A model generated the notes under the pieces. The model did not search any database. It had not been told where the DNA came from and worked only from the letters and a program-made list of their open reading frames with translations. 64,000 nucleotides of DNA from Solimonas sp. (GTDB lineage Bacteria; Pseudomonadota; Gammaproteobacteria; Nevskiales; Nevskiaceae). The DNA lies in contig JASBRP010000010.1 of assembly GCA_030149365.1 (NCBI GenBank), positions 32,751 to 96,750 on the forward strand. Reading direction: 5' to 3'. Shown here one piece after another: positions 9,135-43,707 of the stretch. Numbering within the stretch: position 1 is the stretch's first letter; every line of letters starts with the position of its first letter. A program made the position numbers and the translations under genes.

Positions 9135-9145
9135 GAACGTGCCCC

Positions 9146-24225: not shown

Positions 24226-24603
24226 TTACCGCCAAGCCGGATATTCCGCCACCACCGTGAAGTCCTCCAGCCCCGGCGTGGCGACGAAGGTCTGGCCGCC
24301 GTTGACTACCCAGGCGTGGCCGCTGACCGGGGAGAGCTTCATGCCTACGCGCAGGTTGGCGGCGTGGCCGCGGAGGTTGAGCAGGTACCAGGTGACGATG
24401 GCCTGATCCAGGCACTCGATGGGGAACGGCAGGAAACGCAGGCCGCGCTGGATCCGGTCCGCGATCTGCGGCGCTGGCCGGGCGCCGAAGGCGCGCCACA
24501 GCGGGCGGCAGCGGCGGCCGAGGCCGGTGGCGAGGCGGACGGTGCGGTCCAGGCCGAGGAGCTTGGTGCTGCAGAAGGACAGGACGAGTAAGGCGGCGCT
24601 CAT
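24226..24603 (-). CDS. Lasso peptide biosynthesis B2 protein (transglutaminase-like leader peptidase)
   Basis: Minus-strand ORF: ...LRFLPFPIECLDQAIVTWYLLNLRGHAANLRVGMKLSPVSGHAWVVNGGQTF with catalytic C and HAW motifs. Start uncertain (24603, 24618 or 24633). Confidence 0.85.
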   Translation of the reverse strand: MSAALLVLSFCSTKLLGLDRTVRLATGLGRRCRPLWRAFGARPAPQIADRIQRGLRFLPFPIECLDQAIVTWYLLNLRGHAANLRVGMKLSPVSGHAWVVNGGQTFVATPGLEDFTVVAEYPAWR

Positions 24604-26712: not shown

Positions 26713-26930
26713 GGGACTCGTTCGCGGATGCGCTAGCAGAGCCCTACTGGGTTAGCCAGGCAATCGTTCTACTGCAGGGAAGTTGGGGAGCGGAGGGGCA
26801 TGGGCCGGGTGGATGAAATCGATCCCGGTACGCCGTGGGGCCTCGGTCGTTGCGTGGCAACGTGGGGCCTGGCTCGATAGGAATAGGTTACGCCAGAGGG
26901 GGCGGAACTCATAACGGAGTTCCGTTTTTT
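26713..26930 (+). ncRNA. Candidate structured element ending in an intrinsic terminator (copy 1)
   Basis: GGGACTCGTTCGCGGATGCGCTAGCAGAGCCCTACT at 5' end and CGGAACTCataacgGAGTTCCGTTTTTT at 3' end; shares both ends with 27555-27767. Confidence 0.35.
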
Positions 26931-27059
26931 CTGCAGGAGCCATGCAGCCCATATCTGGAAGTAAGGACTACGCCGCAGGATCGGGCTAGCCCTCAAAGAG
27001 GATCGTCTACCTATCGCCCCGCTATCGAGGCGTCCGAAAGTATCCGCCCAACGTTTTCA

Positions 27060-27403
27060 GAGCGACTCTCGCAACGTCCGCCCCAGAAATTTTCCGTCTG
27101 AGTGTCGCTGAGCCTCGGGCGCCCGATCCATCTTCAGAATCAGATCGGCCAACCGTTCCTGCAAGGCATCCCGGCCGATCACAAACGCGAGTTTCAGGTT
27201 TTTAGCCAGGAGAAATTTTGTGATCTCCTATCAAGGCCCAAAAGGCGGCGATTCACCACCGCCGCTTCATCCAAAGCCTGAGCCGCCCTCTCCATCTCAA
27301 TAGCCTTCTGCGGCGCAGAGAATCTGACGCCCCTCAACGCGTCGCGAAGGGAGAAGATTTTCGCGCGAAGATTCCTTTCCAGATCAGGCTCGAGTAACCC
27401 CAA
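27060..27403 (-). pseudogene. Possible degraded ORF of unknown function
   Basis: Minus-strand ORF 27194-27403 followed in another frame by NLKLAFVIGRDALQERLADLILKMDRAPEAQRHSDG; looks like a broken reading frame. Confidence 0.3.
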
Positions 27404-27554
27404 CCCAGCTACTGCGCCAATGCGTTGCGGCGTTCAGATCTTTTCTTGCTGCCGTCTTCCTACGGCTCTACTTTGAGTATCTCAACGATGACGGCGGATC
27501 GACCCGTCTTGGCCATACGCAATCCGGGGACAGTTCGGCGAAGGGCCAGCTTCC

Positions 27555-27767
27555 GGGGCTCTTTCGCGGATGCGGCGCAGAGCCCTACTCAATCGCCCGT
27601 GCCGACTATTCCTGCGGGAAGCTTTGCTGGAGGTGAGACTGGAGCCGCGTGGAAAAAGACCCTCAGGGCAAATATGGGCACGTTGAAGTTATCTGACCTG
27701 GACCCTGCTCGTTGAGGAGCATTTTAGGCGGATTATGAGCGGAATTTGTAAGGAGTTCCGTCTTTTT
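27555..27767 (+). ncRNA. Candidate structured element ending in an intrinsic terminator (copy 2)
   Basis: GGGGCTCTTTCGCGGATGCGGCGCAGAGCCCTACT at 5' end and CGGAATTTGTAAGGAGTTCCGTCTTTTT at 3' end. Confidence 0.35.
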
Positions 27768-28105
27768 AGCTTGGCTAGCCGGCAACGCAAGAAATTCAAT
27801 CTGGCTCACCGCCATGGCTTGCCAAATGTGCTTCAGTCTTTCTAGCAATGGCAATGGAAACGGCCAGCCATCTCGCAGGTGGCCCTTAAAGAAGACCGTC
27901 GCGCATCGCACAACGCGGACCTCATTTCCCTGAAAAAACAAACGTTCTCTTCGCCGGAAGAGCCTCCATTTCGGAATGCGTAGAAGATTTGTTGTGGCCG
28001 CGGCTGGAAATTGCGATATTTACTAAAGGGGTGGACTACAACCCTCCCAGCCAGGGAGAGCCTCCATAGCTGTGAGGCGCTCATCAATGAACGGGATATT
28101 TCGAA

Positions 28106-28651
28106 ATGGCCAGGCCGTTATTTACGAGCAACGAATGGAAGGGATTCTGGGACGAAATATGGTCAAAGTTCGTAGATGGAATTCGAGCTACCGGCGCCAA
28201 ATTAAGTCTAGTTATCACAGCTTGCGGAATAGCGGCTGTCACTTGGGGGCTTCCTCACCTTAATAGGTCGGACACCTCGCCCGAGACGCTCGGGATTTAT
28301 GTTCTAGGCTTTATCATCCCTTTATTTTGCGAGGCGTTTCTTCTCGTCAAGGATGAAAATCGCTCCTTCGATGGGGCCGTAGCAGAATGGACTTGCATAT
28401 TTTTATTTGTTCTTTGGACTCTCGCCTTTTGGCTGTCCTTAAAAACTAATTTTCCCCAGCCAGCGACGGACGCTCCGCACTCAAAGTCTGAATGGCGTTG
28501 GGGAGCATCTGGATTTCTGCTCTTTTTACTTGTACTTTCCTTATTTTTTAGCTTTGTAGTAACCGGATTCGATCAAAAAAAGGCACCAAAGATCCCGGTT
28601 CTCGATGAAAAACCGCAGGAATTACACGATAGGGCAGACCGTCATGGCTAA
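28106..28651 (+). CDS. Hypothetical membrane protein (about 4 predicted TM segments)
   Basis: LSLVITACGIAAVTWGL, IYVLGFIIPLFCEAFLL, WTCIFLFVLWTLAFWLSL, GFLLFLLVLSLFFSFVV hydrophobic stretches; stop overlaps start of next ORF. Confidence 0.65.
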   Translation: MARPLFTSNEWKGFWDEIWSKFVDGIRATGAKLSLVITACGIAAVTWGLPHLNRSDTSPETLGIYVLGFIIPLFCEAFLLVKDENRSFDGAVAEWTCIFLFVLWTLAFWLSLKTNFPQPATDAPHSKSEWRWGASGFLLFLLVLSLFFSFVVTGFDQKKAPKIPVLDEKPQELHDRADRHG

Positions 28652-29858
28652 ATATTTCCTGACAGTGCCTGCAATCCGCATCTCTCAGCCCATTGGAGAA
28701 TTCTTCCTTTGCTCAATTCCGGCGGAGACACTTCTCGCGGTAACGTACTCGATTCCCGCGACAGCGAAGCGATCAGAAGGACTTTTGACTGGTATTTTTG
28801 GAAACCAGCGAACTGAGATCAAGGATCGCAGTCGGCAGATCGGAGCGTATATTGATGAGGAGAATTCGACGTTTCCCAACAACATCATCCTCAGTGCGAA
28901 TTACAGAACGTCCGGCGACTTCGAGGATGATGAATCTTTGCAATGGCGAGTAGAGCGCGTGAAGGACGAGCACTATCAACTGATAGTGCCATCTCCCGAA
29001 CGTCTGGCGTCAATTATCGATGGCCAGCACCGTCTGAAAGGCTTTGAGGAATCCCAAAAGCCCGACAGGAAAAAAATGGACATGCCGTGTGCGGTATTTA
29101 TCAATCTGCCTCGCCCGTATCAGGCTCGGATATTTGCAACAATCAACATCAATCAAAAGCGAGTGGATAAAAGCCTCGCTTATCAGCTTTTCGGCTACGA
29201 TTTAAATGAGAAAGATGCCGATCTATGGTCTCCAGATATGCTCGCAGTGTTCCTGGCCCGAAATTTAGAGGGCAGAGACGACTCCCCATTTAAAAATCAC
29301 GTGCGCCTTGCACTAGTCCAGATTCCAGGTGAAGGAAAGCAATCATCTGTTTGGAAAGTGTCAATCGCTAGCATCGTCGAAGGCATTACCCGACTCATCT
29401 CCGCCAAACCTGCCGCAGACAGGAGCGCCCTTTTGAGTAAGGAGGCAGTGGACAGATCGAAGCTGGCAATTGACTCTACACCGTTACGCCAGTGGTACAT
29501 CGATGGGAAGGACAAGAAGATTCTAGAATTAATCATTGACTATTTCCGAATCATCGATGAAGTTGTATGGAGCCATCAAACTGAGGGCAGCTTTGCGACC
29601 AAGACGGTCGGCATACTCGCGCTCTTTGACATACTCCGAGAGGGGCTTAGCAAGAAGCGTCTCGACCCAAATGCTACTCAGCAGACCACTCGCACGCTAT
29701 TCGCGCATGCTCGAGGGATCAACTTTTCCGACGACTTCTTCCATGCATCTGGCGCCGGACGGGTACGAATTCGCCGCGTACTCCAAACACTCACAGGCTT
29801 AGATCCAACCCCCCAAAGGGAAACGGCGGAAGCAGTTTCCCGCCTCCTGCATAAGTAG
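28644..29858 (+). CDS. DGQHR-domain protein (DndB-like)
   Basis: ASIIDGQHRLKGFEES ... INLPRPYQARIFATININQKRVDKSLAYQLFGYD. Confidence 0.85.
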   Translation: MAKYFLTVPAIRISQPIGEFFLCSIPAETLLAVTYSIPATAKRSEGLLTGIFGNQRTEIKDRSRQIGAYIDEENSTFPNNIILSANYRTSGDFEDDESLQWRVERVKDEHYQLIVPSPERLASIIDGQHRLKGFEESQKPDRKKMDMPCAVFINLPRPYQARIFATININQKRVDKSLAYQLFGYDLNEKDADLWSPDMLAVFLARNLEGRDDSPFKNHVRLALVQIPGEGKQSSVWKVSIASIVEGITRLISAKPAADRSALLSKEAVDRSKLAIDSTPLRQWYIDGKDKKILELIIDYFRIIDEVVWSHQTEGSFATKTVGILALFDILREGLSKKRLDPNATQQTTRTLFAHARGINFSDDFFHASGAGRVRIRRVLQTLTGLDPTPQRETAEAVSRLLHK

Positions 29859-29863
29859 CGACG

Positions 29864-29944
29864 TTACTCCGCTTTGATCGGAACCTCGGCGCCTGCTTCC
29901 CTAAAAAGACCGATGATCTGCTCTTTCGAATATCGCCTCTTCAC
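29864..29944 (-). pseudogene. IS3-family transposase OrfA N-terminal remnant
   Basis: Minus-strand peptide VKRRYSKEQIIGLFREAGAEVPIKAE* resembles the start of IS3 OrfA proteins (KRRYTEEQIIGFLREAE...). Confidence 0.65.
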
Positions 29945-30276
29945 GTCCGACCTCCTGGGTCTTGGGCCGGACTATAAATCGGCAAGTCGCGGCTGAGTAG
30001 GGCGTGGCCGCTGGATGGCCCGCTCTCGGCATGCGCCGGCCCTAGCGGCCGTGGAGCTGAGGGATTGGCTGTCAGGGATACTATCCGCAGATGGGGCAAA
30101 AATTCGTAACGGGGTGCCGTAATTTTCGGTCCACGACTGCTGGCAGACAGAAAAATAAACTGGCCTCTTTTAGGCCGCGTGCTCCTTGCCTGCGCCCCAC
30201 AGCCGCGTAATATCAACTTTTATTTTCTGCGCACAGTGCCACTCGCATACAGCTCAGTATGTGCCTAGCGGCGACA

Positions 30277-31419
30277 TCAATTCGCCCTGTTCCGTATGTC
30301 ATTCTCTACTTGAGCCGGCGCCTTCCTATCCACCCATCGATAAAACTCCAGCGCACTACCCAAGGCCTTCAGTGAGGCTTTGAGCATCGGACGAGCAGAA
30401 GTAACCTTTGACCACCATCCCAATGTCGGATCTAGCCGTCTGATCTCCTGCCGTAACTCCTCCAGCGCCAAGCCGACTTCTTCCTCACGTACAGCAGAAA
30501 GCCCATGCGTGAAACTGAGCTGATTTCTCGCAGTGTTCACGTTGCCAAAAATATGTCCATTGCCGAAGCGCGCTCCCAACTTCCCGCTGGCAACCAAGAT
30601 GTCCAGGAGCCTGGAAACCCCCGCGCTCTCTCCGTCGGAGAATTTAATGCCATGGACTGTCTCCAACGCCAACCCCGCCTCTACAGCAATGGCACTCAGC
30701 ACATACTCCGTAGCCCGATTGGAAAGCATGAGCGACGCACTTGAGGAACGACGAGCATGCAATATTTCGGCGCATACAAAGCAAATGGCACTCGCAGCTA
30801 CTAACACTTCTTTGATGCTGCCGGCCTCTCTTCGCTCAAGCACCCGGACTATGGAATGAATATCGTTCAACTTGTTAAGAAAATCCTCTAAAGGCCGCCC
30901 CTGGGATATCTCAAAGCGAAGCCGAGCTCGCCATTTCTCAATCTCCTGGACGATGTGAGGCCGCGATATCCACCAGTGGGGGCGCCTAGACGCAGAAACA
31001 TTCGTCATAGCGACCGCACAGGAAAGATAGATCTGCTCCAAAAAAATATAGAGGTCAAGAAGAATTCGTAACGTCGGACCGAATGCCTTACAAGCATCCT
31101 CCTTCTCTAGAAGGCAGAGCAGAGATTCGATGTCTTTTGAGGAAAAAACAAATTCACTAAATGCAGAGTCGAGTTTCTCTGTTACTTGTCGCAATAGAGA
31201 ACTTGGCAGATCTTGAGGGCCCACGCCTGCAAGAAAAGCGGAAAGCTGGTCATGACTAGCGTAGTGCCCTCCAACGATTAGAACAACCTGTTCTCCTGAT
31301 GGGAGGAATTCATGATCTGCGCAGAGCTCTGCAAGAAACATCTCATACTGCTCGGCATCCATCAGCGTACAAGCCGCCGACAACGGCAGGCTCATATCCC
31401 AGCGAGCCACGGAAGACAT
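30277..31419 (-). CDS. Hypothetical protein with HEPN-like C-terminal region
   Basis: C-terminal NTARNQLSFTHGLSAVREEEVGLALEELRQEIRRL has an Rx6H element in HEPN-like context; family assignment tentative. Confidence 0.5.
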   Translation of the reverse strand: MSSVARWDMSLPLSAACTLMDAEQYEMFLAELCADHEFLPSGEQVVLIVGGHYASHDQLSAFLAGVGPQDLPSSLLRQVTEKLDSAFSEFVFSSKDIESLLCLLEKEDACKAFGPTLRILLDLYIFLEQIYLSCAVAMTNVSASRRPHWWISRPHIVQEIEKWRARLRFEISQGRPLEDFLNKLNDIHSIVRVLERREAGSIKEVLVAASAICFVCAEILHARRSSSASLMLSNRATEYVLSAIAVEAGLALETVHGIKFSDGESAGVSRLLDILVASGKLGARFGNGHIFGNVNTARNQLSFTHGLSAVREEEVGLALEELRQEIRRLDPTLGWWSKVTSARPMLKASLKALGSALEFYRWVDRKAPAQVENDIRNRAN

Positions 31420-31421
31420 TT

Positions 31422-33386
31422 CTAGTCCAGAAGGTCTTCAAGTTGTACAGAGATGTATGCAAGTAATTTGGACTTTGCCTCTTCGAATCGAATCGATGAA
31501 ATTTTTGCGATCTCCTCAAGAAACTTCTTCTTGTCGTCCGCGTTGCCCGATTTTTGAAGGGCCCGCAGATGCTCTATCTCCGCTTCATCCTGAATAACTT
31601 CCATGTAGTTATTCTTATAAAACTTAATTAGCTGATCCCTGAGAGTAGACAGGTATGCCGACGCCGCCTGCCGGGCTATCGATCGGAGGGCCGTAGTTAA
31701 TGATTGCTTCAGTGGTGATTCGAGCTTTGTCCCTCGGAGCTTCTCTAGCGCGTTAATCGAAGCGTCGATGGCCACCTTCATGCTCAGAGAACTAAGCATT
31801 AAATTTAGCCAACCCTGTTTAATCTCTCCGCCTTTGAAGTTCGCTCTCTCTCCCTGCCAAAGCATGTGCTGAGTAAACGTACTACTGCCCAGAAATTGCA
31901 TGTCATGCGGGACAATGGTCTTCTCGAAGGCAGCCACGACCATATGTGCCGCCTCGCCAGGCAGAACGCCATGCTTAATGAGATCGCGGCTAACGACTAT
32001 CCAGGATCGAATAAAGGCTTGCTGGAAGACGGCCAATCTACTGGTTTTCGGCTGGTCCGCCTCAATGTCTTTAAACAAAGATGTATAGGCCAGCTTAGTT
32101 TCCGGCATCGCGATGGCATTAATGTCAGAGGGAATTTGGTGTTGCACAATCATCTTATGAACGAGATCAAACTCCGGCTTATCTCCTCTTTTCCTTTCAA
32201 CGGCCAGGCGCTGCATCCTGTCCCTCATATGCGATATCAACTTGGCATATGGAGAGAACTCTGTAAAAAGAACGGATAGAGGTTTAGCGACATACTCGGC
32301 GATCTGCTTGTAAATAACTTCATCGACAGCGCCACCAGAAACCTCCCTAGCAACAGCATCAATATCAAAGTCCTCATCCAGATCCAAAAGCCGTTCTTGA
32401 ACAGCAGGAAGCTGAAGTATGGTTGATGCAACTCTTGGAACAAAAAGGCTTGCACTAAGTGCATCAACTATTATGGAAACGGAGGTAATGCTGTAAGGTC
32501 GATTAATCTGGCCGGCTTTTTTATCATCGTGGATATTCCATTCTAAGTGATGGAGCTTGCTGTACCCGGCCGTCTCATCGTCTTTCCAACGCTCTGCAAA
32601 TGCCCTTACTGCTTCAGCAGCATAGGATCTATCATCGAGCAGCTGGAGGAAATGACCACTAACCCTTTTTGCCTCGTTATTTACGGTTATGAATAGATCT
32701 CGAAGATCTTCTAGGCCTGATTTCGTAGCGCCAACAGCAAACGGCGAAAACACAATGCATATGGGCACTTCGATCCCTTCTACAACGCTCTTCGACTCTT
32801 CGGAGTCATAGAGGCCGGAAAGAGCTTTGTATCGATGCTGACCATCGATAACAACCAGCGAGGATCGAGAAGAATTCAGCTCAAGGTGAGCGCCAAAGTC
32901 ATAGTAGAAGAAGGGTTTGCCAAGATCTGAAAATTTGGGAAGCTTCTCATTCTCTACACTACTTCCCCAAAGCTTTAGCCTGAACAGATTTCCATCCCAT
33001 GTAACTGTTATCGATGTACCGTTGTCGCTGTCCTCCTGAACGGGCACATCTTGAAAGAATTCCTGGATCTCTCCCGTCAGGTCTTTGTTAATAATCGAAA
33101 CCAGCAATGGCGCAAAAAAAACCGATCGGCCCTGGCTTTCCACAACGTAGTCCCGAATGTCGGCAACGTGACTAACATTCACATCGCGTTGAATCATCTG
33201 AGAGAACTTAATTTTTTGAATTGGCAGCGCGTCTGCCGCAACCTGCAACGTATTCTTAAGACGACTAATCGGAACCGTCGTCATAAAATAGAAAGCCGGA
33301 TGACTCGCCTTGGTCCTGAATCGACCGAAGGTACCCCGGAACTTCGCATCGAAAACGTCAGTCGGCGCTTTAAACATCGCTTCCAT
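31422..33386 (-). CDS. DGQHR-domain protein (DndB-like, 654 aa)
   Basis: SSLVVIDGQHRYKALSGLYDSEES ... LFITVNNEAKRVSGHFLQLLDDRS. Confidence 0.85.
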   Translation of the reverse strand: MEAMFKAPTDVFDAKFRGTFGRFRTKASHPAFYFMTTVPISRLKNTLQVAADALPIQKIKFSQMIQRDVNVSHVADIRDYVVESQGRSVFFAPLLVSIINKDLTGEIQEFFQDVPVQEDSDNGTSITVTWDGNLFRLKLWGSSVENEKLPKFSDLGKPFFYYDFGAHLELNSSRSSLVVIDGQHRYKALSGLYDSEESKSVVEGIEVPICIVFSPFAVGATKSGLEDLRDLFITVNNEAKRVSGHFLQLLDDRSYAAEAVRAFAERWKDDETAGYSKLHHLEWNIHDDKKAGQINRPYSITSVSIIVDALSASLFVPRVASTILQLPAVQERLLDLDEDFDIDAVAREVSGGAVDEVIYKQIAEYVAKPLSVLFTEFSPYAKLISHMRDRMQRLAVERKRGDKPEFDLVHKMIVQHQIPSDINAIAMPETKLAYTSLFKDIEADQPKTSRLAVFQQAFIRSWIVVSRDLIKHGVLPGEAAHMVVAAFEKTIVPHDMQFLGSSTFTQHMLWQGERANFKGGEIKQGWLNLMLSSLSMKVAIDASINALEKLRGTKLESPLKQSLTTALRSIARQAASAYLSTLRDQLIKFYKNNYMEVIQDEAEIEHLRALQKSGNADDKKKFLEEIAKISSIRFEEAKSKLLAYISVQLEDLLD

Positions 33387-33412
33387 AGATCACCTAGTTG
33401 CCGTTTGAATAG

Positions 33413-34051
33413 TTAAGCCAGCGAAATCCGCGGCCGAAGAAACGCTTGAGTTGCTCGCTCTGCACATAACACCGCCCTTCTCGGCACATCCAAGGGACGG
33501 ACTATAAATTTTAGATCAGACCACGATACCTTTAGCTCCTTCAGTCGGCCTGAGAATTGAGTGGCTCCAGACATATGTTGACGGAGACGCTCCTGAAAGG
33601 TTTGACTGGCTGTCATCCCGACATATATCGGTTGCGATAAATCCAATGTGTAGCGCAAGACCATTGCCGCAGCTTTAACGGCATCGACCCCGCCACCGAG
33701 TTCACTAATCACTTGCGCCAGATAAGTCGCATGCACGCCTTCCGGACTGGGTTGCGCGGTCACGGAGTAGGAAGTTCGCAGATGTGGTGCCTGCTCCGTA
33801 GCGATTTGGCCCAAAAGAATGCTGCTACGACTTAAGGCTAGATTGAGCCGCTCCGCCCTTCGTAGCAAGTCAGTGGTTAGGAGCTTGCAATCCCTCTCCG
33901 GCAGAAGTCCGAGCCTCACATCATTCGGCAGCGATAAGCGGAACGCATAAATCCCAAAATTGTCATCCGGGACATTATCCGCCTCTCCAGGCAACTCAAA
34001 AATATGTTCTGCGCTCATGTCGCACGCATGCCCTCTGGAAGACTCATACAA
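33413..34051 (-). CDS. GIY-YIG-like domain protein
   Basis: LDLSQPIYVGMTASQTFQERLRQHMSG...LDVPRRAVLCAERATQAFLRPRISLA resembles GIY-YIG core with terminal RP. Confidence 0.6.
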   Translation of the reverse strand: MYESSRGHACDMSAEHIFELPGEADNVPDDNFGIYAFRLSLPNDVRLGLLPERDCKLLTTDLLRRAERLNLALSRSSILLGQIATEQAPHLRTSYSVTAQPSPEGVHATYLAQVISELGGGVDAVKAAAMVLRYTLDLSQPIYVGMTASQTFQERLRQHMSGATQFSGRLKELKVSWSDLKFIVRPLDVPRRAVLCAERATQAFLRPRISLA

Positions 34052-34090
34052 CTAAAATATCTCTGCCGGAGACGACTCGCGCTTGGGCAG

Positions 34091-35224
34091 CTATAGCAAG
34101 GACTCGATACGGTGAGCTAATAAGTCCCAAGGCACTTCAGGCGTAGCGTGACTCCAGCTAATGCGGACACACGCGTTGGCGGCATCAGGGGACATACCCA
34201 TCGCTGTAAGCACGTGGCTTGGTGAATAGCTAGCCGAGGTGCAGGCAGATCCATTTGAGATAGCTACCAGGTCCTTCAAGGCGACAATCAACGCCTCAGA
34301 ATCCAAGCCGGCGAAGGACAGATTGAGCACGTGAGGTTCCACATTCGCTACACTTCCCGAGATTTGCGGAGAAAGCCGCGACAGGGCCGCGATGGCCTGC
34401 TGGCGAACCTCGAGATTCTTATTCCTTCGAGCTACATTATCCCGCTCTGCAAGAGCACTTGCTTCGCCTAGTGCTGCAATCAATGCGACCGGCAATGTGC
34501 CGGGACGCAGCCCACGCTCCTGTCCTCCACCAAAAAGGATCGGGCGCAGGGGAATCTTTTCGTATCCTCGACGGCGGGCGATCAAAGCGCCAACACCCTT
34601 AGGGCCATAGATCTTATGCCCACTAATACTGATGAGATCTAGGCGGGAATTCCGCAATGGCTCAATGTCCTTACCGAAGCCTTGGGCTGCATCGGTATGC
34701 AGGAACGCTGGGTGGTCCTCCATGACGGCGCAGATGGAAGCAAGTGGCTGACGAATGCCCGTCTCGTTGTTCACCTGCATCAACGACACCAATAGTGTGT
34801 CTTCGCGAAGTGCCCCTTCCAGATCTGCCGGGTCCACCTCACCGCTGCTTCCCACAGGGAGTGTTGTTACCTCAAATCCTTCTCGCGCCAGGGCCTCCAC
34901 AGGCTCCAATACGGCCTTATGCTCAATAGCAGAGGTAATGATATGTCGCCGTCCACTCGCCGCACCTTCCTCGCGGAGGCCAAGAATCGCGAGGTTGTTG
35001 CTTTCCGTCGCGCCACTAGTAAACACCACCTCCTCACGGCGGCATTGCACCACTGATGCGAGCTGATCACGGGCTCGCTGGACTGCCTGTTTAGCGCGAG
35101 CACCATATTCGTGCGTCCGGCTCCCCTCATTCCCATACTCGAGTGTCAGGTATTTCAACAAAATGTCGCGCACAGACGGCTCTAACGGCGTAGTCGCGTT
35201 GCAATCGAGGTAGATGGGGGCCAC
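34091..35224 (-). CDS. dndA: Cysteine desulfurase (DndA/IscS-like)
   Basis: MAPIYLDCNATTPLEPSVRDILL...VFTSGATESNNLAILG...ISGHKIYGPKGVGALIARR...GSACTSASYSPSHVLTAMG; divergent from dndB. Confidence 0.9.
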   Translation of the reverse strand: MAPIYLDCNATTPLEPSVRDILLKYLTLEYGNEGSRTHEYGARAKQAVQRARDQLASVVQCRREEVVFTSGATESNNLAILGLREEGAASGRRHIITSAIEHKAVLEPVEALAREGFEVTTLPVGSSGEVDPADLEGALREDTLLVSLMQVNNETGIRQPLASICAVMEDHPAFLHTDAAQGFGKDIEPLRNSRLDLISISGHKIYGPKGVGALIARRRGYEKIPLRPILFGGGQERGLRPGTLPVALIAALGEASALAERDNVARRNKNLEVRQQAIAALSRLSPQISGSVANVEPHVLNLSFAGLDSEALIVALKDLVAISNGSACTSASYSPSHVLTAMGMSPDAANACVRISWSHATPEVPWDLLAHRIESLL

Positions 35225-35234
35225 GGCGCTCCCT

Positions 35235-35268
35235 ATGTACGTTTTATTCTGGTTGATTTAACATACAT
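35235..35268. promoter_or_regulatory. Inverted repeat in dndA/dndB divergent promoter region
   Basis: ATGTACGTT-N16-AACATACAT, 1 mismatch between arms. Confidence 0.45.
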
Positions 35269-35298
35269 GCCGCCAGAATTTGACGGACATGACCTGCC

Positions 35299-36444
35299 AT
35301 GCCGCGCAACTCCTCTCCAGGTTCACGTACAGGCGGCCCCATTATGGCGGGTTCCTCGGACGTAAGCACCCAGCCCACCCTGACATTTCCTGTCATCCGA
35401 GGGATTCAGGCCCATCGCGAGTACTACGTGGCGATGTGGACTCTCCGGATGCTGCGCCAGATCTCGATTTTTAATGAGGACGAGCTTTCTCCGGAGCTGC
35501 GGGCGCAGCGGACCCTTAACACTGCGCGGGTGCCGGAGATTTGCGATTACATCCTTGGAAATCCTGAGGACTATGTCTTCTCGGCACTTACGGTCTCCAT
35601 CGACTCGGACGTGCATTTCGAGGCACTCCCCGGACAGGACAAGCTGGGGCTCCTCCAGGTGCCGATGGATGCAAGATTCATCATTAACGACGGACAACAT
35701 CGGCGTGCGGCCATTATTAGGGCCCTCGAACAGCGCCCGGAGCTTGGTCACGAATCCATCGCCGTGGTGTTCTTCCTCGACATTGGCCTAGAGCGTTGCC
35801 AGCAGATGTTTGCCGACCTAAACCGGCATGCGATACGGCCCAGCCGCTCTTTGGGCCTCCTATACGACCACCGCAACGACAAGGCTCAGCTAGCCAAGTT
35901 AGTCGTGATGAAGTCAGATTTCTTTCGGGAAATCGTAGATATGGAGCGATCATCCCTGGCAAAGCGCTCGCGGAAGCTTTTCACGCTATCGGCCTTCCAC
36001 AATGCGTGCGCGGATCTCGTCAGCGGGCTGGCCACGGGGGATCTAAATGAAGATGCAGACCTGGCCCGCGAGTACTGGGATGCTGTGTCAAAGCACTTTC
36101 CAGCTTGGGGACAGGTTAGGGAAAATCGCCTTTCGGCCAGTGAGGTTCGCGATGGTTACATCCATTCGCACGGCATCGCGCTTCAGGCTCTCGGCAAGGC
36201 AGGAAACACCTTACTGCACGAACACAAGGCGAATTGGAAGCAAAAGCTTAAGAAGCTGGAGACCATTGATTGGTCTCGCAACAATGCCCGCGTTTGGGAG
36301 GGCCGCGCGCTTATTGGCGGCAAGGTTTCCAAAGTCACCACAAATGTCTTGTTGACTACCAACATCATTAAGCAGGCCCTGTCACTGCCGCTAAGCGCAG
36401 ACGAACAACAGGTTGAGTCCGCGAATCTTAAGGGGCGCCACTAG
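35299..36444 (+). CDS. dndB: DNA sulfur modification protein DndB
   Basis: FPVIRGIQAHREYYVAMWTLRMLRQISIFNEDELSPELRAQRTLNTARVPEICDYIL...FIINDGQHRRAAI; followed by dndCDE. Confidence 0.9.
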   Translation: MPRNSSPGSRTGGPIMAGSSDVSTQPTLTFPVIRGIQAHREYYVAMWTLRMLRQISIFNEDELSPELRAQRTLNTARVPEICDYILGNPEDYVFSALTVSIDSDVHFEALPGQDKLGLLQVPMDARFIINDGQHRRAAIIRALEQRPELGHESIAVVFFLDIGLERCQQMFADLNRHAIRPSRSLGLLYDHRNDKAQLAKLVVMKSDFFREIVDMERSSLAKRSRKLFTLSAFHNACADLVSGLATGDLNEDADLAREYWDAVSKHFPAWGQVRENRLSASEVRDGYIHSHGIALQALGKAGNTLLHEHKANWKQKLKKLETIDWSRNNARVWEGRALIGGKVSKVTTNVLLTTNIIKQALSLPLSADEQQVESANLKGRH

Positions 36445-36467
36445 GGCCCTACTTTCCGAGCAATTTC

Positions 36468-38114
36468 ATGACTAAGCGAGAGGCGCCGATCAAAACGCCA
36501 CAGGCGGTTGATCCAACACCACTGAGCGCAATAACCAGTGGAGGAAAAAAAGCCGGGAAAGGTGCCAGCATCACAGGCACCAAGCGCGCATCGGCATTCG
36601 ATGAGCTTGGCTACAGAAAAACGATTGAGCAGCTCCTAGAAGAGATTCGAGAAATCTACCGGCTTGACGATGTGCCGTGGATTATCGGCTACTCCGGGGG
36701 CAAGGATTCCACGGCCACACTGCAGTTGATCTGGAACGCTCTGCAGGGCTTGCCGCTGGAGCAACGACACAAGCCCATTTTTGTAATCTCCACTGACACC
36801 TTAGTGGAGAACCCAATCGTTTCTTCTTGGGTTCGCTCCTCACTCCGCACGATGTCGGCGGCCGCTCAGAGCCAGCAGCTACCCATACGCCCTGAGCTCT
36901 TGCATCCTAAGGTTGAGGACTCCTTCTGGGTAAACCTGATTGGACGCGGCTATCCGGCGCCGCGCCCAAAATTCCGCTGGTGCACCGAGCGGCTAAAGAT
37001 TCGCCCTTCGAACAAATTCATTCTGGATCTCGTAGCCGAGAACGGCCAGGCGATCTTGTGTCTTGGAGCCCGAAGCGAAGAAAGTGCGGCCCGCGCCAAG
37101 GTTCTGGCCCGCAATACCAAATACCGCGTGCGAGATCGCTTGAGCCCCAGCGCCACCCTACCTGGCTGCCAGATTTATACACCGGTTGAAGCCTGGACCA
37201 GCGATGATATTTGGTTTTATCTCAACAATGAAAAAAATCCGTGGGGCGCTAGCAACAAGGAGTTGATGGGCATGTACGCGGGGGCGACCGCCGATGGCGA
37301 ATGCCCCTTGGTGGTGGACACCTCCACCCCCAGTTGCGGCGACTCTCGATTCGGCTGTTGGGTATGCACTCTCGTCGAAAAAGACAAATCGATGACAGCC
37401 ATGATCCAGAATGACGCCGAAAAGGAGTGGATGATGCCGCTTCTCGATCTGCGTAACGCGCTCGACTTTCGCAACAATGCCGTCGCTGACGAGACGTCCA
37501 GCGATCACCATCTGCGCGACTTTCGACGAATGGGTGGCGCAGTCGTTCTCATGGCAGACGGAAACCCAGTCCCTGGCCCCTACACTCAGTCGGCTCGAGC
37601 CGACTGGCTAAGCCGACTGCTTAAGGCGCAAAGCTACATCCGCAAGAATGGTCCCAAGGACGTCGCTGACTTGGAGCTGATAACGCTCAATGAGCTACAA
37701 GAGATTCGGCGCCTTTGGATCACAGAGAAACATGAGCTTGAGGATCTTCTTCCCAAAATCTATCAAGCCAGCACCGGCAAGGCCTACCCAGGAGCCGCGC
37801 TGGACGACAACCTTTTGCTCGGTGAGACAGAGTTTAAATTGCTTGCGGAAATTTGCGGAGAAGACCGCTTACATTATGAGCTTGCCAGGGAGCTCCTGGG
37901 CCTAACCCAGCAGCAGCGCTTCTCTGGGCGCCGCTCCGGCTTGTACGACCAAATTGAGAAAGCCTTCCGACGCCACTTTTTTGACGACAAGGACGACGCG
38001 GTGTCCAGGGCACGCCGGCGCGCCGACCACAAAGCCAAGCGAACTTCGCAGCGGCAGACGGGGACCGTGACCGCCACCGAGGGCCATTCGCCCTCCGAAG
38101 ATCTCGAAGCATGA
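36468..38114 (+). CDS. dndC: DNA phosphorothioation protein DndC (PAPS-reductase-like PP-loop)
   Basis: DVPWIIGYSGGKDSTATLQLIWNAL; KFRWCTERLKIRPSNKFI; FGCWVCTLVEKDKSM. Confidence 0.93.
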   Translation: MTKREAPIKTPQAVDPTPLSAITSGGKKAGKGASITGTKRASAFDELGYRKTIEQLLEEIREIYRLDDVPWIIGYSGGKDSTATLQLIWNALQGLPLEQRHKPIFVISTDTLVENPIVSSWVRSSLRTMSAAAQSQQLPIRPELLHPKVEDSFWVNLIGRGYPAPRPKFRWCTERLKIRPSNKFILDLVAENGQAILCLGARSEESAARAKVLARNTKYRVRDRLSPSATLPGCQIYTPVEAWTSDDIWFYLNNEKNPWGASNKELMGMYAGATADGECPLVVDTSTPSCGDSRFGCWVCTLVEKDKSMTAMIQNDAEKEWMMPLLDLRNALDFRNNAVADETSSDHHLRDFRRMGGAVVLMADGNPVPGPYTQSARADWLSRLLKAQSYIRKNGPKDVADLELITLNELQEIRRLWITEKHELEDLLPKIYQASTGKAYPGAALDDNLLLGETEFKLLAEICGEDRLHYELARELLGLTQQQRFSGRRSGLYDQIEKAFRRHFFDDKDDAVSRARRRADHKAKRTSQRQTGTVTATEGHSPSEDLEA

Positions 38115-40084
38115 TCATTGACTCAATAACGTTGCAGAATTTCGGGGTCTATCGCGGCACTCAATCAGCCGTTCTTACCCCAGAACCTGGCAAGCCGATC
38201 ATATTGTTTGGAGGCATGAACGGCGGCGGCAAGACCACCATGCTCGATGCAGTTCAGCTTGCGCTTTATGGGCCGCGAGCACGCATATCAAATCGTGGCA
38301 ACCTTTCTTACAAGGAGTATCTGCGCGAAGCGATGCATCGCGCTGCTCCACCCGAGGAAGGCGCGGGCGTCGTGCTGGAGTTCCGACGGCTGGTAAATGG
38401 TCAGTTCCAGTCCTTTCGTATAAGCCGGAACTGGTTTTCGACCGCCAAGGGCATAGAGGAGAACACGGAGGTTTCGCAGAACGGCGTAACTGATCCTGAA
38501 GCGGCTAGCCAATGGGACGAGACAATCGATGCTTATCTACCTAACAGCATCGCTCACCTCTTCTTCTTCGACGGTGAACAAATCATGGACTTGGCTGAAG
38601 CCGAGCATGCCGCGGATATCCTTCGGACAGCGATCCACTCCTTGCTCGGCCTGGATCTTGTTGACAGGCTTGAAACTGACCTGAAGGTTTTTGAGCGCCG
38701 CAAGCGTGCCGAAGAACTGGACCCTTCTGCCGCTGCCGAGCTTGTCCATCTGCGCGCCCAGTTGGAACAGTTAGATTCTGAACAAGCACAGATCGCAGCC
38801 GATGAGGCCGCCCTGGTAAATCAAGTTGGGCGACTCTCCAAAGAGGTCAGCTTAAAGGAGGCGCACTTTCGCTCAGAAGGCGGAGAGCTTTTTGATAAGC
38901 GCGCAGAACTAGACCGGCGCTTGGCAGAGGTCCGTCAAGAAAAGCTCCGCACTGAGGCACAACTAAGGGAGCTCGCCGCGGGCATGCTACCCCTGGCGAT
39001 GCTGCGCTCCGAGCTCAATGCACTACATCGATTGGCTGATCACGAAGAAGACATTAAGCGCGCCAGAACCGTTTTGACTGTCCTCCAGAGGCGCGATCAG
39101 AATCTGATCAGACAGCTGACCAATGAGGGGCTCTCTGCCAAGGCCCTCGCGACCGTATCGACCGTAATGAAGGACGACCAGAAGCGCCGAAAAGCCGATG
39201 CGGATGGTGAGCTGTACTTAGGGGCTTCCGGAGATCTTCCGGCTCAGCTCGAATGGATCGAAGCCTCTCCATTAACAAGTGCTGAGCATCAGGCCCGATC
39301 GCTAGTAAAGGCGATTGGCAGCTTTGACGAGAAGATCCTAAAGGTTGAACGAGACCTCGAACGCGTTCCGTCAACGGAGCGGATCGAGGCGATTAAGGCT
39401 GAGCTCAACGCGCTCAGCGGATCCCGCGAGCGAAAGGCAGCTGAATTAGAAGTTCTCCGATCGCGGCAAGCCGCGCTTTCAAAGACCCGACAGTCCCTTG
39501 AGGCACGCTTAGACCGAACCGATCAAGAGCATTTTGATCATCAGGCCACAGCGGACGACAAGGCTCGCTTCCTGCGTCACTCAATCAAAGTTAGGTCTAC
39601 ACTGGACGCACTTCGTGGACGCGTAGTTGAGCAGCACGCCGAGCGGATGCAAACCCTGATCCTTGACGCATTCCACCAGCTGCTGAGAAAGAGCGACTTG
39701 GTTTCCGCCATACAGATTGACCCCGAATCCTTCAGCATCACTCTGAAGGATGCCAAGCGACAGCCCCTGCCTTTCAGCCGCCTTTCTGCAGGTGAACGAC
39801 AGCTTCTTGCCACTTCTCTTCTTTGGGGACTCGCTCGTGCATCTGGCAGGCCCATTCCTACCATGATTGACACACCGCTGGGCCGCCTCGATTCAACTCA
39901 TCGAATGCATCTTGCAAGCCGCTACTTCCCGAACGCATCGCATCAGGTTGTTTTACTTTCCACTGACGAAGAATTGGTTGATGAAGACTTGTCGGCCATT
40001 CAGCCCTTTGTCTCAAGAACCTATCTCTTAAAGCATGATGATCGACAAGGAACCACGCGAATTGAGAAGGGGTACTTCCAGTGA
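38111..40084 (+). CDS. dndD: DNA phosphorothioation ATPase DndD (SMC-like)
   Basis: IILFGGMNGGGKTTMLDAVQLALYGPRA; coiled coil; LSAGERQLLATSLLWGLAR; position in dnd operon. Confidence 0.93.
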   Translation: MIIDSITLQNFGVYRGTQSAVLTPEPGKPIILFGGMNGGGKTTMLDAVQLALYGPRARISNRGNLSYKEYLREAMHRAAPPEEGAGVVLEFRRLVNGQFQSFRISRNWFSTAKGIEENTEVSQNGVTDPEAASQWDETIDAYLPNSIAHLFFFDGEQIMDLAEAEHAADILRTAIHSLLGLDLVDRLETDLKVFERRKRAEELDPSAAAELVHLRAQLEQLDSEQAQIAADEAALVNQVGRLSKEVSLKEAHFRSEGGELFDKRAELDRRLAEVRQEKLRTEAQLRELAAGMLPLAMLRSELNALHRLADHEEDIKRARTVLTVLQRRDQNLIRQLTNEGLSAKALATVSTVMKDDQKRRKADADGELYLGASGDLPAQLEWIEASPLTSAEHQARSLVKAIGSFDEKILKVERDLERVPSTERIEAIKAELNALSGSRERKAAELEVLRSRQAALSKTRQSLEARLDRTDQEHFDHQATADDKARFLRHSIKVRSTLDALRGRVVEQHAERMQTLILDAFHQLLRKSDLVSAIQIDPESFSITLKDAKRQPLPFSRLSAGERQLLATSLLWGLARASGRPIPTMIDTPLGRLDSTHRMHLASRYFPNASHQVVLLSTDEELVDEDLSAIQPFVSRTYLLKHDDRQGTTRIEKGYFQ

Positions 40085-40485
40085 TGAAAGCCCCGATTGA
40101 AACCATCCGCATTAGTCAGCAAGGCAAAGATCAGCTGATCAAGCTGCGTCGAAACACAGGCATTGAGCACTGGAACGTGCTTTGCCGCTGGGCATTTTGC
40201 GCATCACTCCGTGATCCGAAAGCCCCTACCGCTTTCTCCGATAAGCTGGAGGGCGGCGTTGAAATGACGTGGAAGGTGTTCGCTGGCGAGCATGCCGATC
40301 TTTATGCTGGATTGACGCGCATGCGAGCCAAAGAAGACGGATGGGCGGGCAGCGAGGAGGAGATTGGCCAGTATTTGCGCGCTCACCTACATCGAGGCCT
40401 CAATTTTTTATCTTCTGGAACAGCCACGAAATCTCTGGCGGAGCTATGTTCAAAGTGGATCACGGAACCTAAGGCTAAGCGCTAA
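40084..40485 (+). CDS. dndE: DNA sulfur modification protein DndE
   Basis: MKAPIETIRISQQGKDQLIKLRRNTGIEHWNVLCRWAFCASLRDP; small basic protein overlapping dndD stop. Confidence 0.9.
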   Translation: MKAPIETIRISQQGKDQLIKLRRNTGIEHWNVLCRWAFCASLRDPKAPTAFSDKLEGGVEMTWKVFAGEHADLYAGLTRMRAKEDGWAGSEEEIGQYLRAHLHRGLNFLSSGTATKSLAELCSKWITEPKAKR

Positions 40486-40532
40486 CCCGCCGTCATATCT
40501 AGAAGCGCTCGGATGGTGGAGGTATCGACCCT

Positions 40533-43073
40533 ATGGCCATTGGAAAGGTTGTAGCCGAGCACCTCTACATACACGTATCAGCACTCCAAGAATTGGAGGA
40601 TCAGGATACTGCGGTACTAATTCGCGAAACCTTGGCGTTACTGCCGCCGGCGGAGGGCGCAGTAGTCAACGTTGCTAAGGTTCATCTGCGCAGCCGCGCC
40701 GTTTCACTGCTGTCCTATCCTTACTTCGAAGACGACCCTTTCCCGCGTCTAAGCTGCAGCTGGTCTAGAGCATCCGGAGATACGGGCGTCGTAACGCGTC
40801 GAAGCTACGAGGACTCCAGTAATCCTCCTATCCTGCACCGGAAGGAGCTCATGGTTTCTCCGAATCACCCCTCGCGCGACGCATGGTCGCGCCTGACGGA
40901 GGAGGCCAAAGAGTGGGGTCTATTCGATGAGTCGGCCACAATAGGCTTTGCGTTAAATTGGGAACGCCTGATTGCCTCTAAGGGCCTGCAGATTCTAGGT
41001 GGCCAGCTGATTCCGTTGGGCAATGACACTTCCGACAGTGCCTCATCGTCCTCCGAGCTACCTTCTGGGCCCATTGAGCGACACCGGACTGCGCTCTCCC
41101 GACAGGCCCTGTCGGTACCGATACAACTCCTTACGCGACATGGTCTTTTAGAACCCTCTCAAACCTTCTTCGACTATGGGTGCGGTCGGGGAGGCGATAT
41201 GACCAGACTAAGGGAAGAAGGTTACGCCGTTGGCGGGTGGGATCCGTACTTCGCCCCAGCTTCCGAACACCACCCTGCAGACGTGGTGAATCTCGGCTTC
41301 GTCATTAACGTCATCGAAGACCCTGCCGAGCGCGTGGAGGCATTGCGATCTGCCTTTCATCTTACACGGAAGGTTCTGTCTGTCGGAGTCATGCTCGCTG
41401 GGAGCAGCAATGCTGGTCAGACTTTTGGTGATGGCCTGCGATCGAGCCGGAACACCTTCCAGAAGTACTTTACGCAAAAGGAGATTAAAGACTACGTTGA
41501 GACTGTGCTAGAGCGAGAGGCGCACCCCGTTGGACCCGGGGTGGTCTTTGTTTTTTCAGATGCTGCGCACGAGGAAAAATTTCTAGCCCGGCGCTACCGA
41601 AGCCAGAATGTGGCGCCTCGCCTGTTGGCCAGGCAACGCGTCAGGCACTCCTCATTAGAACAATTTAAGGCGACCCATCAGGCCCTGCTAGCTACGCCTG
41701 AAGCACAAGCAGCACTAGATAGGCTCTGGCTCCTAGCACTTGACTTGGGGAGACTGCCCGACGAGATGGAGGCCAGCAGTATCGGAAATTTTTTGCAGAT
41801 TTTCCCCAGCTACAAAAAAGCCCTGCGCACGCTCGCCCAAACAAAGGAGATCTCATTACTCGAGCAAGCAGAGAAGGCCCGCAAGGATGACCTTGACGTT
41901 TACTTCGCCCTTCTCCACTTCACCCGAAAAGCAGATCGGAAGAACAGCGATCCTGTCCTTCAACGAGATATCCGGCACTTTTACGGCACAGTGACACTTG
42001 CCAGTGAGGCAGGCAATAGACTGCTGCGAACAGCGGCCGTTCCAGCCTCGATATACGAAGCCTGCCACTGGTCCAGCGAAAAAGGCCTTGGCTGGCTCAC
42101 AGAACAATCCCACTTTCAGCTTGAAGCCGTTAGCGTCGATCGACTTCCTGCTGTGCTACGCATTTACATTGCCTGCGCGCTTCAGCTATCCGGTTCCGTT
42201 GCCAAGTATCAGTTAGTAAAGATTCACATAGCCTCTGGCAAGGTCAGCTTCCTTGACTATCAAGACTACGACTCGCCCCTCCCGCTCTTGCGACGTCGCT
42301 TGAAGGTCGATTTGCGGCGTCAAGATCTTCAGCTCTTTGAGTATGGATCCCCTCAATTCCCCATGCCCATACTTCACCAGAAGAGTCGCTTTATGAGCGA
42401 CGAGAGCGAAGGGTATGCCGAGCAAATCTCTTTTGACGAGAGACTCGAAAACCTTGGACTGGCGGATGCACGGCTTGGAGCAGATGAGCTTCTGCAGGAA
42501 ATTCGTTACCGAAGACTAGAGATTTCCGGGAGATCGCTACGCCCTAGTACCGAGATCCCAGCCTTGAGCGAACGCTGCGGCAAATTTCTGCGCTTTCAGG
42601 ATTTGATCCATTGCGGAGAAACGCAGCATCGGCTTGGCGTTGCGAATACTCCGCTACGTGCAGACAGCTACAACGCATTGTATGAACTCGCCACCCATGT
42701 GCTTGACCCTGTAATCGAATACTTCGGCGCGATAAAACTAACCTATGGATTTTGTTCCGCCGAGCTTCAAAAGCACATCAAAAGCAGGGTAGCGCCCAAG
42801 CTTGATCAGCATGCCGCAGCAGAGCTAAATGCCCGGGGCCACCTTATTTGTCCCCGCGGGGGCGCAGCATGCGACTTTCTGGTCGAGGACGAAGACATGG
42901 CGGGTGTTGCGGAATGGATCATCGAAAACCTTCCCTTCGATCGCCTCTATTTCTATGGAAAGGATCGGGCCGTTCATGTGAGTTACGGGCCGGAACAATC
43001 ACGTCTGGCTTACGAGATGATCGAGCGAGGAGGAAAGCTTGTCCCCCGCGAATATAAGAAGAAAACTTCTTAA
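40533..43073 (+). CDS. DNA phosphorothioation-associated putative methyltransferase
   Basis: HRTALSRQALSVPIQLL...FFDYGCGRGGDMTRLREEGYAVGGWDPYFAP; SAM-binding motif, colinear with dndBCDE. Confidence 0.85.
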   Translation: MAIGKVVAEHLYIHVSALQELEDQDTAVLIRETLALLPPAEGAVVNVAKVHLRSRAVSLLSYPYFEDDPFPRLSCSWSRASGDTGVVTRRSYEDSSNPPILHRKELMVSPNHPSRDAWSRLTEEAKEWGLFDESATIGFALNWERLIASKGLQILGGQLIPLGNDTSDSASSSSELPSGPIERHRTALSRQALSVPIQLLTRHGLLEPSQTFFDYGCGRGGDMTRLREEGYAVGGWDPYFAPASEHHPADVVNLGFVINVIEDPAERVEALRSAFHLTRKVLSVGVMLAGSSNAGQTFGDGLRSSRNTFQKYFTQKEIKDYVETVLEREAHPVGPGVVFVFSDAAHEEKFLARRYRSQNVAPRLLARQRVRHSSLEQFKATHQALLATPEAQAALDRLWLLALDLGRLPDEMEASSIGNFLQIFPSYKKALRTLAQTKEISLLEQAEKARKDDLDVYFALLHFTRKADRKNSDPVLQRDIRHFYGTVTLASEAGNRLLRTAAVPASIYEACHWSSEKGLGWLTEQSHFQLEAVSVDRLPAVLRIYIACALQLSGSVAKYQLVKIHIASGKVSFLDYQDYDSPLPLLRRRLKVDLRRQDLQLFEYGSPQFPMPILHQKSRFMSDESEGYAEQISFDERLENLGLADARLGADELLQEIRYRRLEISGRSLRPSTEIPALSERCGKFLRFQDLIHCGETQHRLGVANTPLRADSYNALYELATHVLDPVIEYFGAIKLTYGFCSAELQKHIKSRVAPKLDQHAAAELNARGHLICPRGGAACDFLVEDEDMAGVAEWIIENLPFDRLYFYGKDRAVHVSYGPEQSRLAYEMIERGGKLVPREYKKKTS

Positions 43074-43098
43074 GTGACGCCCGCGGCGCCTTACACAA

Positions 43099-43707
43099 CT
43101 ACCCCCGCGGATGCCCCTCCATCATCGCCCGCGCCGCCTGCGGCAACGCCGCCGTGGGGCCGGTTGAGCCCAGGCTGAGCAGGCTCATGTAGGCGCCGTC
43201 CATCAGCAGGAAGAGGCCGCGGGCCAGGGCGCCCGGATCCTTGTAGCCGGCCTGGGTGCAGAGCTGGGTGATGCGCTCCAGCTTCTGGCGGTTGAACTCG
43301 GTGACTACTTCCCTGGCAGGGTGGTTGGGCTCGGTGAGCTCGACGCTGGCGTTGCCGATGGCGCAGCCGCGGGTGTCGCAGGTGCAGGCCTTGCGGGCCT
43401 GGCTATCGAAGATGGCTTGCAGGGCGGCGCGGGCGTCGCCGGGGTGTTGGGCGACGATCTCGTCCAGCCACTCCCAGTATTCGCGGACGGATTCGCGCAG
43501 GTATTCCACCACCAGGTCGTCCTTGCAGCTGAAGGACCGGTAGAGGCTCATCTTGGTGGTCTGGGCCTCGCTGGCGATGGACTCCACACCCACGGCGCGG
43601 ATGCCGTTCTTGTAGAAAAGCTGGCGGGCCGCACTGAAGATGCGGTCTCGCGCGCTGGCGCGGGGCGCCTGACATTCCTTTTCCTTTGAAACACTTGCAG
43701 TGGACAT
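43099..43707 (-). CDS. TetR/AcrR-family transcriptional regulator
   Basis: RDRIFSAARQLFYKNGIRAVGVESIASEAQTTKMSLYRSFSCKDDLVVEYL. Confidence 0.93.
   Translation of the reverse strand: MSTASVSKEKECQAPRASARDRIFSAARQLFYKNGIRAVGVESIASEAQTTKMSLYRSFSCKDDLVVEYLRESVREYWEWLDEIVAQHPGDARAALQAIFDSQARKACTCDTRGCAIGNASVELTEPNHPAREVVTEFNRQKLERITQLCTQAGYKDPGALARGLFLLMDGAYMSLLSLGSTGPTAALPQAARAMMEGHPRG

Follow-up and report, generated by a model that had tools for sequence, protein, structure and literature searches.

The genome of a Solimonas sp. carries a horizontally acquired island that combines a predicted Dnd DNA phosphorothioation (PT) system with a reverse-strand operon encoding DndA, a GIY-YIG nuclease-like protein, a long DGQHR protein and a HEPN-like protein, and the GIY-YIG and long DGQHR genes recur as a pair alongside sulfur-DNA systems in many bacterial phyla. 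We give roughly even chances to the reading that this is a PT-coupled defence island in which the dndA–GIY-YIG–long DGQHR–HEPN operon forms the predicted effector arm. Pairing of GIY-YIG with long DGQHR genes in PT systems appears not to have been described before in the literature searched.

The 64-kb stretch of DNA that was analysed, referred to here as the window, contains a region of ∼16 kb (∼26,930–43,105) with a GC content of 0.46–0.57 against 0.66–0.70 in its flanks. Synteny with a congener (G050) ends at 26,929 and restarts at 43,106, the same flanks being joined there by a different insert of 3.4 kb. The GC drop and the broken synteny mark positions 26930–43105 as a real and foreign island in a defence-gene spot, which in congeners is occupied by genes with predicted defence functions, namely a helicase and GNAT pair, Dcm/Vsr/GHKL-like genes, or methyltransferase and GHKL-like genes. 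The island comprises complete dndA and dndBCDE, a dnd-associated methyltransferase gene and two satellite sets, one with a four-transmembrane (4-TM) protein and a TIGR04172-like DGQHR protein 1 on the forward strand and the other consisting of the dndA–GIY-YIG–654-amino-acid DGQHR–HEPN operon on the reverse strand. All of the genes named in the initial annotation have open frames, in the order and on the strands given there.

The modification genes were called with NCBIfam models and their curated cut-offs, and all of them score above these thresholds, in agreement with the completeness claimed initially. The cysteine desulfurase gene dndA (34091–35224, reverse strand) matches TIGR03235 at 501 bits against a cut-off of 480 and is followed on the forward strand by dndB (35344–36444; TIGR03233, 486 against 328 bits), the sulfurtransferase gene dndC (36468–38114; TIGR03183, 645 against 290 bits), the ATPase gene dndD (38111–40084; TIGR03185, 587 against 246 bits), dndE (40081–40485; TIGR03184, 112 against 72 bits) and a gene for a DNA phosphorothioation-associated putative methyltransferase (40533–43073; TIGR04096, 508 against 150 bits). 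With dndA/iscS and dndBCDE all present, the locus is a predicted Dnd PT system on the basis of its gene content.

Genes for DndF, DndG or DndH were not seen anywhere in the 64-kb window, as had been claimed initially. It could be argued that DndFGH is encoded elsewhere and was missed in a draft genome, the satellite genes then being regulators or decayed passengers, and the state of the assembly (69 contigs, 93% complete) lends this some weight. The DndF and DndH models found no match in the rest of the host genome; the same models were silent in every genome tried, so their silence outside the window is weak evidence. DndFGH genes normally lie near dndBCDE, however, and the flanks adjoining the island are conserved in the congener. 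Moreover, all accessory frames are open with their catalytic residues intact, and DndI-type DUF262 (GmrSD_N) is absent from the host genome by a model that detects three copies in a Citrobacter positive control. This explanation is considered quite improbable.

The GIY-YIG nuclease-like protein (33413–34051, reverse strand) was recognized by family alignment and has an insert of ∼100 amino acids between the GIY and YIG motifs. The window copy keeps all nine columns that are invariant in the 52-row family alignment (G33, Y35, P141, Y143, G145, R155, H159, E198, and P207), and these include the GIY and YIG motifs with the catalytic Arg and Glu of the GIY-YIG superfamily, which makes the protein a predicted nuclease. 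The Pfam GIY-YIG model matches 24 of the 52 family members at E ≤ 0.1 (best 1.2e-4), the window copy on its own falling below the cut-off, and the family profile gives weak matches to UvrC, I-TevI and T4 EndoII. Among 993 genes of the long-DGQHR loci, the GIY...YIG...R...H pattern occurs in 52, all from this family.

Its neighbour, the 654-amino-acid long DGQHR protein (31422–33386, reverse strand), has a DndB-like N-terminal half and a helical C-terminal half. It scores 62.2 bits against DGQHR model TIGR03187 (cut-off 58.85; 6e-17) and 43.3 bits against Pfam DndB PF14072 (cut-off 29.1; 3e-11), and the DGQHR motif is invariant in a 62-row alignment, so that by domain and motif it is assigned to the DndB/DGQHR family as a long form. 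No other copies of this protein were found in 85 genomes of the order or in 369 genomes of the class. An AF2 model (pLDDT 79.7, pTM 0.83) found no significant PDB or viral match with Foldseek, the top four viral matches including two GmrSD (DUF262) proteins at non-significant scores; an NTPase or PT-sensing role is therefore suggested by the motif. DndB is a reported transcriptional repressor, and the DGQHR proteins may be regulators only. A lead on the role of DGQHR is offered by analogy with DndI, where ATP hydrolysis and PT-stimulated defence both depend on the DGQQR motif (PMC11662687).

To follow these proteins across bacteria, 80 relatives of the 654-amino-acid protein were gathered without regard to their neighbouring genes. 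Within the retrieved DNA, 64 of the 80 loci adjoin PT modification genes, 34 with dnd and 30 more with Ssp/DUF4007-type genes, and six of nine genomes without PT genes at the locus encode DndC above the cut-off; dndBCDE is present in 1.82% of bacterial genomes (PMC8569181). An insert-bearing GIY-YIG protein is encoded directly upstream of the long DGQHR gene in 54 of the 80; the GIY-YIG gene precedes it closely on the same strand in 57 loci, mostly overlapping it or separated by ≤10 bp. The co-occurrence check proposed in the initial annotation thus found the GIY-YIG–long DGQHR and long DGQHR–HEPN pairs to be conserved, mostly beside PT genes, which supports the view that the accessory genes are not random neighbours of dnd.

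The same distribution bears on whether the pair serves the modification step itself, with the GIY-YIG protein nicking or processing DNA for sulfur insertion, the DGQHR protein tuning marking like DndB, and restriction being located elsewhere or absent. In Ssp/DUF4007 loci the pair sits inside the writing cluster directly after a PAPS-reductase-like gene, it accompanies two distinct PT writers (dnd and Ssp/DUF4007), and the Ssp writing proteins include a nickase, all of which would fit such a function. In dnd loci, in contrast, the pair usually lies outside dndBCDE on either strand, some pairs are separated from the closest PT gene by at least ∼10 kb (for example, L022) and, to our knowledge, well-studied dnd systems write PT without it. 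A role in modification is therefore judged unlikely.

The last gene of the operon encodes a HEPN-like predicted RNase (30277–31419, reverse strand) with an RNx5HG motif at residues 298–306. In the window-type DGQHR branch, a fast-evolving HEPN-like protein is encoded directly downstream of the DGQHR gene in five of five intact loci at a spacing of 2–9 bp. The genes at this position in the window and in L012, L013, L100, and L101 share only E238, R298, N299, H305, and G306 as invariant residues, homology of the window protein being weak outside the motif. RNx5HG occurs in three of the 993 genes of long-DGQHR loci, two of which directly follow a window-type DGQHR gene. HEPN relatives score 24.8 and 19.7 bits (2.1e-5 and 7e-4) against Csm6 HEPN PF09670, with a cut-off of 27; the window copy matched no curated family in a single-sequence search, and the HEPN alignment, used as a profile against the PDB, returned nothing meaningful. 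The AF2 model is all-helical but of poor quality (pLDDT 40.8), and the R-x4-6-H motif in this modelled all-helical domain is consistent with a predicted HEPN RNase. The GIY-YIG-like and HEPN-like calls, for which single-sequence family searches are weak or silent, are both supported by family alignments. In the tree, the five HEPN-bearing rows form one clade with L011, a locus interrupted on its 3' side by an insertion element, and the position of the window clade involves long branches. E. coli genomes yielded no DNA relative of the Citrobacter DGQHR–HEPN pair. GIY-YIG and HEPN genes occur together in the window only; the other HEPN-type loci have no GIY-YIG gene, so the two nucleases need not cooperate.

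Dnd loci without DndFGH that carry URI/GIY-YIG or HEPN nuclease genes at their borders, sometimes on the opposite strand, have been described as encoding likely suicide effectors (Rakesh, Aravind, and Krishnan, 2024; PMC10853773), and the general idea is already known because of that report. By extension, the accessory genes here may be standalone suicide or toxin-like effectors at the dnd border, the HEPN RNase being restrained by the neighbouring DGQHR protein and self/non-self discrimination playing no part in their action. The short DGQHR–HEPN spacing and fast HEPN evolution fit such a toxin–regulator pair; the GIY-YIG–DGQHR pair, however, is fixed over many phyla and often within an operon, which exceeds what would be expected of interchangeable border toxins, and we doubt this explanation. 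The loci of that study resemble the window in that dnd lacks DndFGH and adjoins genes of the GIY-YIG superfamily and HEPN genes, whereas its main text makes no mention of the DGQHR motif and, as far as consulted, gives no account of a long-DGQHR partner, pairing, GIY insert or Ssp/DUF4007 link.

The forward satellite set consists of a 181-amino-acid predicted membrane protein (28106–28651, forward strand; ∼4 TM segments), identified by hydropathy and position as a DGQHR1 partner, and DNA phosphorothioation-associated DGQHR protein 1 (28644–29858, forward strand). The latter matches TIGR04172 over its full length at 426 bits (E 1e-127), below the cut-off of 450, and is a near relative of that family rather than a certified member; its treatment as a new family was dropped. 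Its likely start is the ATG at 28,644, chosen by overlap with the upstream gene in place of 28,605. TIGR04172 (DGQHR_dnd_1) has been a known PT satellite family since 2011, to which the forward protein corresponds, and no mention of a membrane partner was found in the available part of that report (PMC3226654). A membrane protein of 171–180 amino acids is encoded directly upstream of the TIGR04172 gene in four of four annotated plasmid loci, all adjoining PT-associated genes, so that the association recurs. The window membrane protein did not align with these plasmid counterparts by phmmer, and tblastn against plasmids gave no match for it or for the window GIY-YIG and HEPN proteins. The initial interpretation is therefore partly supported, with a correction on novelty as regards the border nucleases and the forward DGQHR protein; the DGQHR-centred pairs were not found in the literature searched.

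Compared with known systems, the window shares the modification genes of IscS-DndBCDE-DndFGH and has GIY-YIG, long DGQHR and HEPN genes instead of DndFGH. Similar to IscS-DndBCDE-DndI, it combines Dnd modification with a non-FGH candidate effector in which a DGQ[QH]R-type motif occurs, whereas DndI is a single DUF262 and HNH protein and the DGQHR protein here is separate from the nucleases, with a GIY-YIG nuclease fold (PMC11662687). In the Citrobacter relative L013, genes for DGQHR, HEPN and DndI-like proteins stand in a row. The GIY-YIG–long DGQHR pair has relatives inside DUF4007/PAPS-reductase loci of the kind found in the SspABCD-SspE and Type-4 BREX PT systems, whereas the window uses dndABCDE rather than Ssp or Brx genes.

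The identities of the genes, their catalytic residues, the pairing within operons and the link to PT across phyla come directly from the analysis. For the predicted effector arm, we infer an order of action, together with the enzyme activities, PT sensing and protection against phage, in which DndA and DndBCDE would place PT marks on host DNA, possibly supplemented by another mark that the TIGR04096 methyltransferase adds. The long DGQHR protein is a DndB paralogue that combines an NTPase-like DGQHR motif with a large helical half; it would restrain or license its partners in response to PT status or invader signals; the GIY-YIG protein would nick or cut unmarked invader DNA, and the HEPN protein would act as a backup RNase that halts growth if marking fails. 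A broader proposal, to which appreciably less than an even chance is given, is that the long DGQHR protein is an unnamed control subunit of PT immunity common to Dnd and Ssp/DUF4007 systems, switching on an adjoining interchangeable nuclease. In most lineages this nuclease would be the GIY-YIG DNase with its insert; one proteobacterial branch would have a Csm6-like HEPN RNase in its place, and the bacterium studied here would have both, for a two-stage DNA-then-RNA response. DndFGH is lacking from most Dnd modification loci. As a concrete candidate for the effector arm that is missing there and would read the sulfur mark, the analysis offers the pair of GIY-YIG and long DGQHR genes, found with Dnd and Ssp/DUF4007 writers over many phyla, and the HEPN branch, if this reading is true, would link DNA marking to RNA-level shutdown.

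The PT modification genes of the window form a complete set, with dndA, dndBCDE, and the TIGR04096 methyltransferase gene each above its curated cut-off in the family search and dndA divergent from the others. Following dndA on the reverse strand are a GIY-YIG-like gene (212 aa, after a 39 bp gap), the long DGQHR gene (654 aa, 26 bp further on), and a HEPN-like gene (380 aa, after 2 bp); upstream, on the forward strand, a 181-aa membrane protein gene overlaps the gene of the TIGR04172-like protein DGQHR1. The initial annotation had described these genes correctly, and re-examination moved only the start of DGQHR1, to 28,644. The TIGR04172 family has been known as a PT satellite since its definition in 2011 (PMC3226654). 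In 4/4 plasmid loci examined, the TIGR04172 gene is preceded by a membrane protein of 171–180 aa. PT-associated genes are close by in each: two of the loci have dndC/dndD or DndE-type genes, and two have the restriction enzyme named by TIGR04095 together with associated protein 4. The pair in the window matches these in form.

The GC content falls from 0.66–0.70 to 0.46–0.57 across about 27–43 kb of the window, and synteny with the congener G050 extends up to 26,929 and resumes from 43,106. Between these flanks lies other content of 3.4 kb in G050 and about 6.8 kb in a second congener, G051, and in a third, G052, methyltransferase and GHKL-like genes adjoin the same TetR gene; by-eye reading gives a helicase with a GNAT-type pair and a Dcm/Vsr/GHKL-like set as alternative contents. 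Because of the GC drop, the broken synteny, and these alternative contents, the spot looks like a site of defence-gene turnover, and the dnd island appears to have been acquired horizontally. In loci L113, L114, and L115, alternative predicted defence genes lie between or beside the flanks that bound window positions 26,930–43,105. The left island edge (26,930–28,105) holds about 1.1 kb without a clear gene and may be decayed. Genes at 20–26 kb that flank the island resemble a lasso-peptide cluster, in which the asparagine-synthetase-like gene (24,419–26,467) is accompanied by a PqqD-like gene and an ABC transporter.

The first distant relatives of the 654-aa protein (plasmid tblastn) were annotated as DndB in cyanobacterial DUF4007 loci (DUF4007, PAPS reductase, helicase, cysteine desulfurase), and a Nonomuraea relative found in the same way adjoins dndABCDE and the methyltransferase gene. 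An alignment of plasmid relatives was used to scan 85,000 genomes, giving 80 loci with mechanically called ORFs. By phmmer and clustering, the DNA analysed at each locus contained dnd genes in 34/80 loci, Ssp/DUF4007-type genes in 30/80, and neither in 16/80 (several of them on short contigs), frequencies that apply only to this sample from a scan relying on two motifs. DndC scored above cut-off in six of nine genomes whose locus had neither gene type. Set against a dndBCDE prevalence of 1.82% of bacterial genomes (PMC8569181), the locus counts and the DndC elsewhere in these genomes link the family to PT by genomic association. That the accessory proteins act in PT modification is a reading held to be unlikely.

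A GIY-YIG partner was present in 57 of the 85 loci collected at that stage, always immediately preceding the long DGQHR gene on the same strand, and in most cases overlapping it or lying within 10 bp. Nine residues (G-x-Y, P-x-Y-x-G, R, H, E, P) are invariant across 52 aligned rows including the window copy, which keeps 9/9; they constitute the GIY-YIG catalytic signature, with an insert of ~100 aa separating GIY from YIG. Pfam GIY-YIG matches 24 members at E≤0.1, all weakly, and the best match in a PDB profile search was UvrC, with I-TevI and T4 EndoII weaker. Three loci (L060, L022, L078) have the GIY-YIG and long DGQHR pair with no PT genes in the locus DNA, and their genomes encode DndC. 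In many Streptomyces-type dnd loci (L029, L034, L036, L050, and other actinobacterial loci, at about 8000–9800), a GHKL-ATPase of cluster c13 occupies the slot upstream of the long DGQHR gene that GIY-YIG fills elsewhere, and L029 also has an Mrr-type nuclease just downstream.

The closest relatives of the 654-aa protein come from Rubrivivax (L011), Shewanella benthica (L012), Citrobacter (L013), and two genomes from the order of the Citrobacter genome (L100, L101). The next gene encodes a 351–415 aa protein in all four relatives with an intact 3' side, and such a gene is found in 5/5 loci with the window included. Only E238, R298, N299, H305, and G306 are invariant in all five proteins, the RNx5HG motif occurs in 3/993 genes of the collected loci, and the L012 and L013 copies match PF09670 (Csm6 HEPN domain) under its cut-off. 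Since the window copy is barely alignable beyond the motif and its AF2 model is poor, the 380-aa protein is graded as likely HEPN. In the tree, the HEPN-bearing rows form one clade (SH-aLRT 95), the window being nearest L011, with long branches calling for caution. The window's double set of GIY-YIG and HEPN is unusual, because GIY-YIG is absent from the other members of this branch. In Citrobacter sp. On2M (L013:9968–14966), long DGQHR, HEPN-like, and DndI-like (DUF262 + GmrSD_C) genes stand in a row convergent with dndBCD.

The initial annotation had described a Dnd system without DndFGH. No match to the DndH model was found among 369 members of the class, in 19 further genomes with DGQHR, or in 14 controls, and the DndF model likewise matched none of the 14 controls; because the controls were silent too, this silence carries little weight for the genome outside the window. 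That DndFGH is present but was missed is considered improbable. Decoupling of DndABCDE from DndFGH, and URI (GIY-YIG)/HEPN nucleases at dnd borders, are described by Rakesh et al. (2024; PMC10853773). A search of mainly open-access main texts found no published description of the long DGQHR family, of the way it is paired, in Dnd and Ssp/DUF4007 loci alike, with a GIY-YIG protein that bears an insert, or of the DGQHR–HEPN branch.

The AF2 model of the long DGQHR protein is confident (pLDDT 79.7): its N-terminal half, which contains DGQHR, is mixed alpha-beta and its C-terminal half helical. A structure search with it returned no significant relatives. DndI, whose motif is DGQQR, acts as a PT-stimulated ATPase and nickase (PMC11662687); the long DGQHR protein may, by analogy, serve as a sensor or switch that is NTP-driven. 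Makarova et al. (2012; PMC3506569) proposed that immunity genes, those of dnd among them, are coupled with suicide genes. That the accessory nucleases are uncoupled suicide effectors is given a low probability. The initial annotation had tentatively assigned the restriction or abortive arm to GIY-YIG and HEPN and sensing to the DGQHR proteins. In the preferred reading, which is given an even chance, the island would encode PT-coupled defence in which the long DGQHR protein controls both predicted nucleases.
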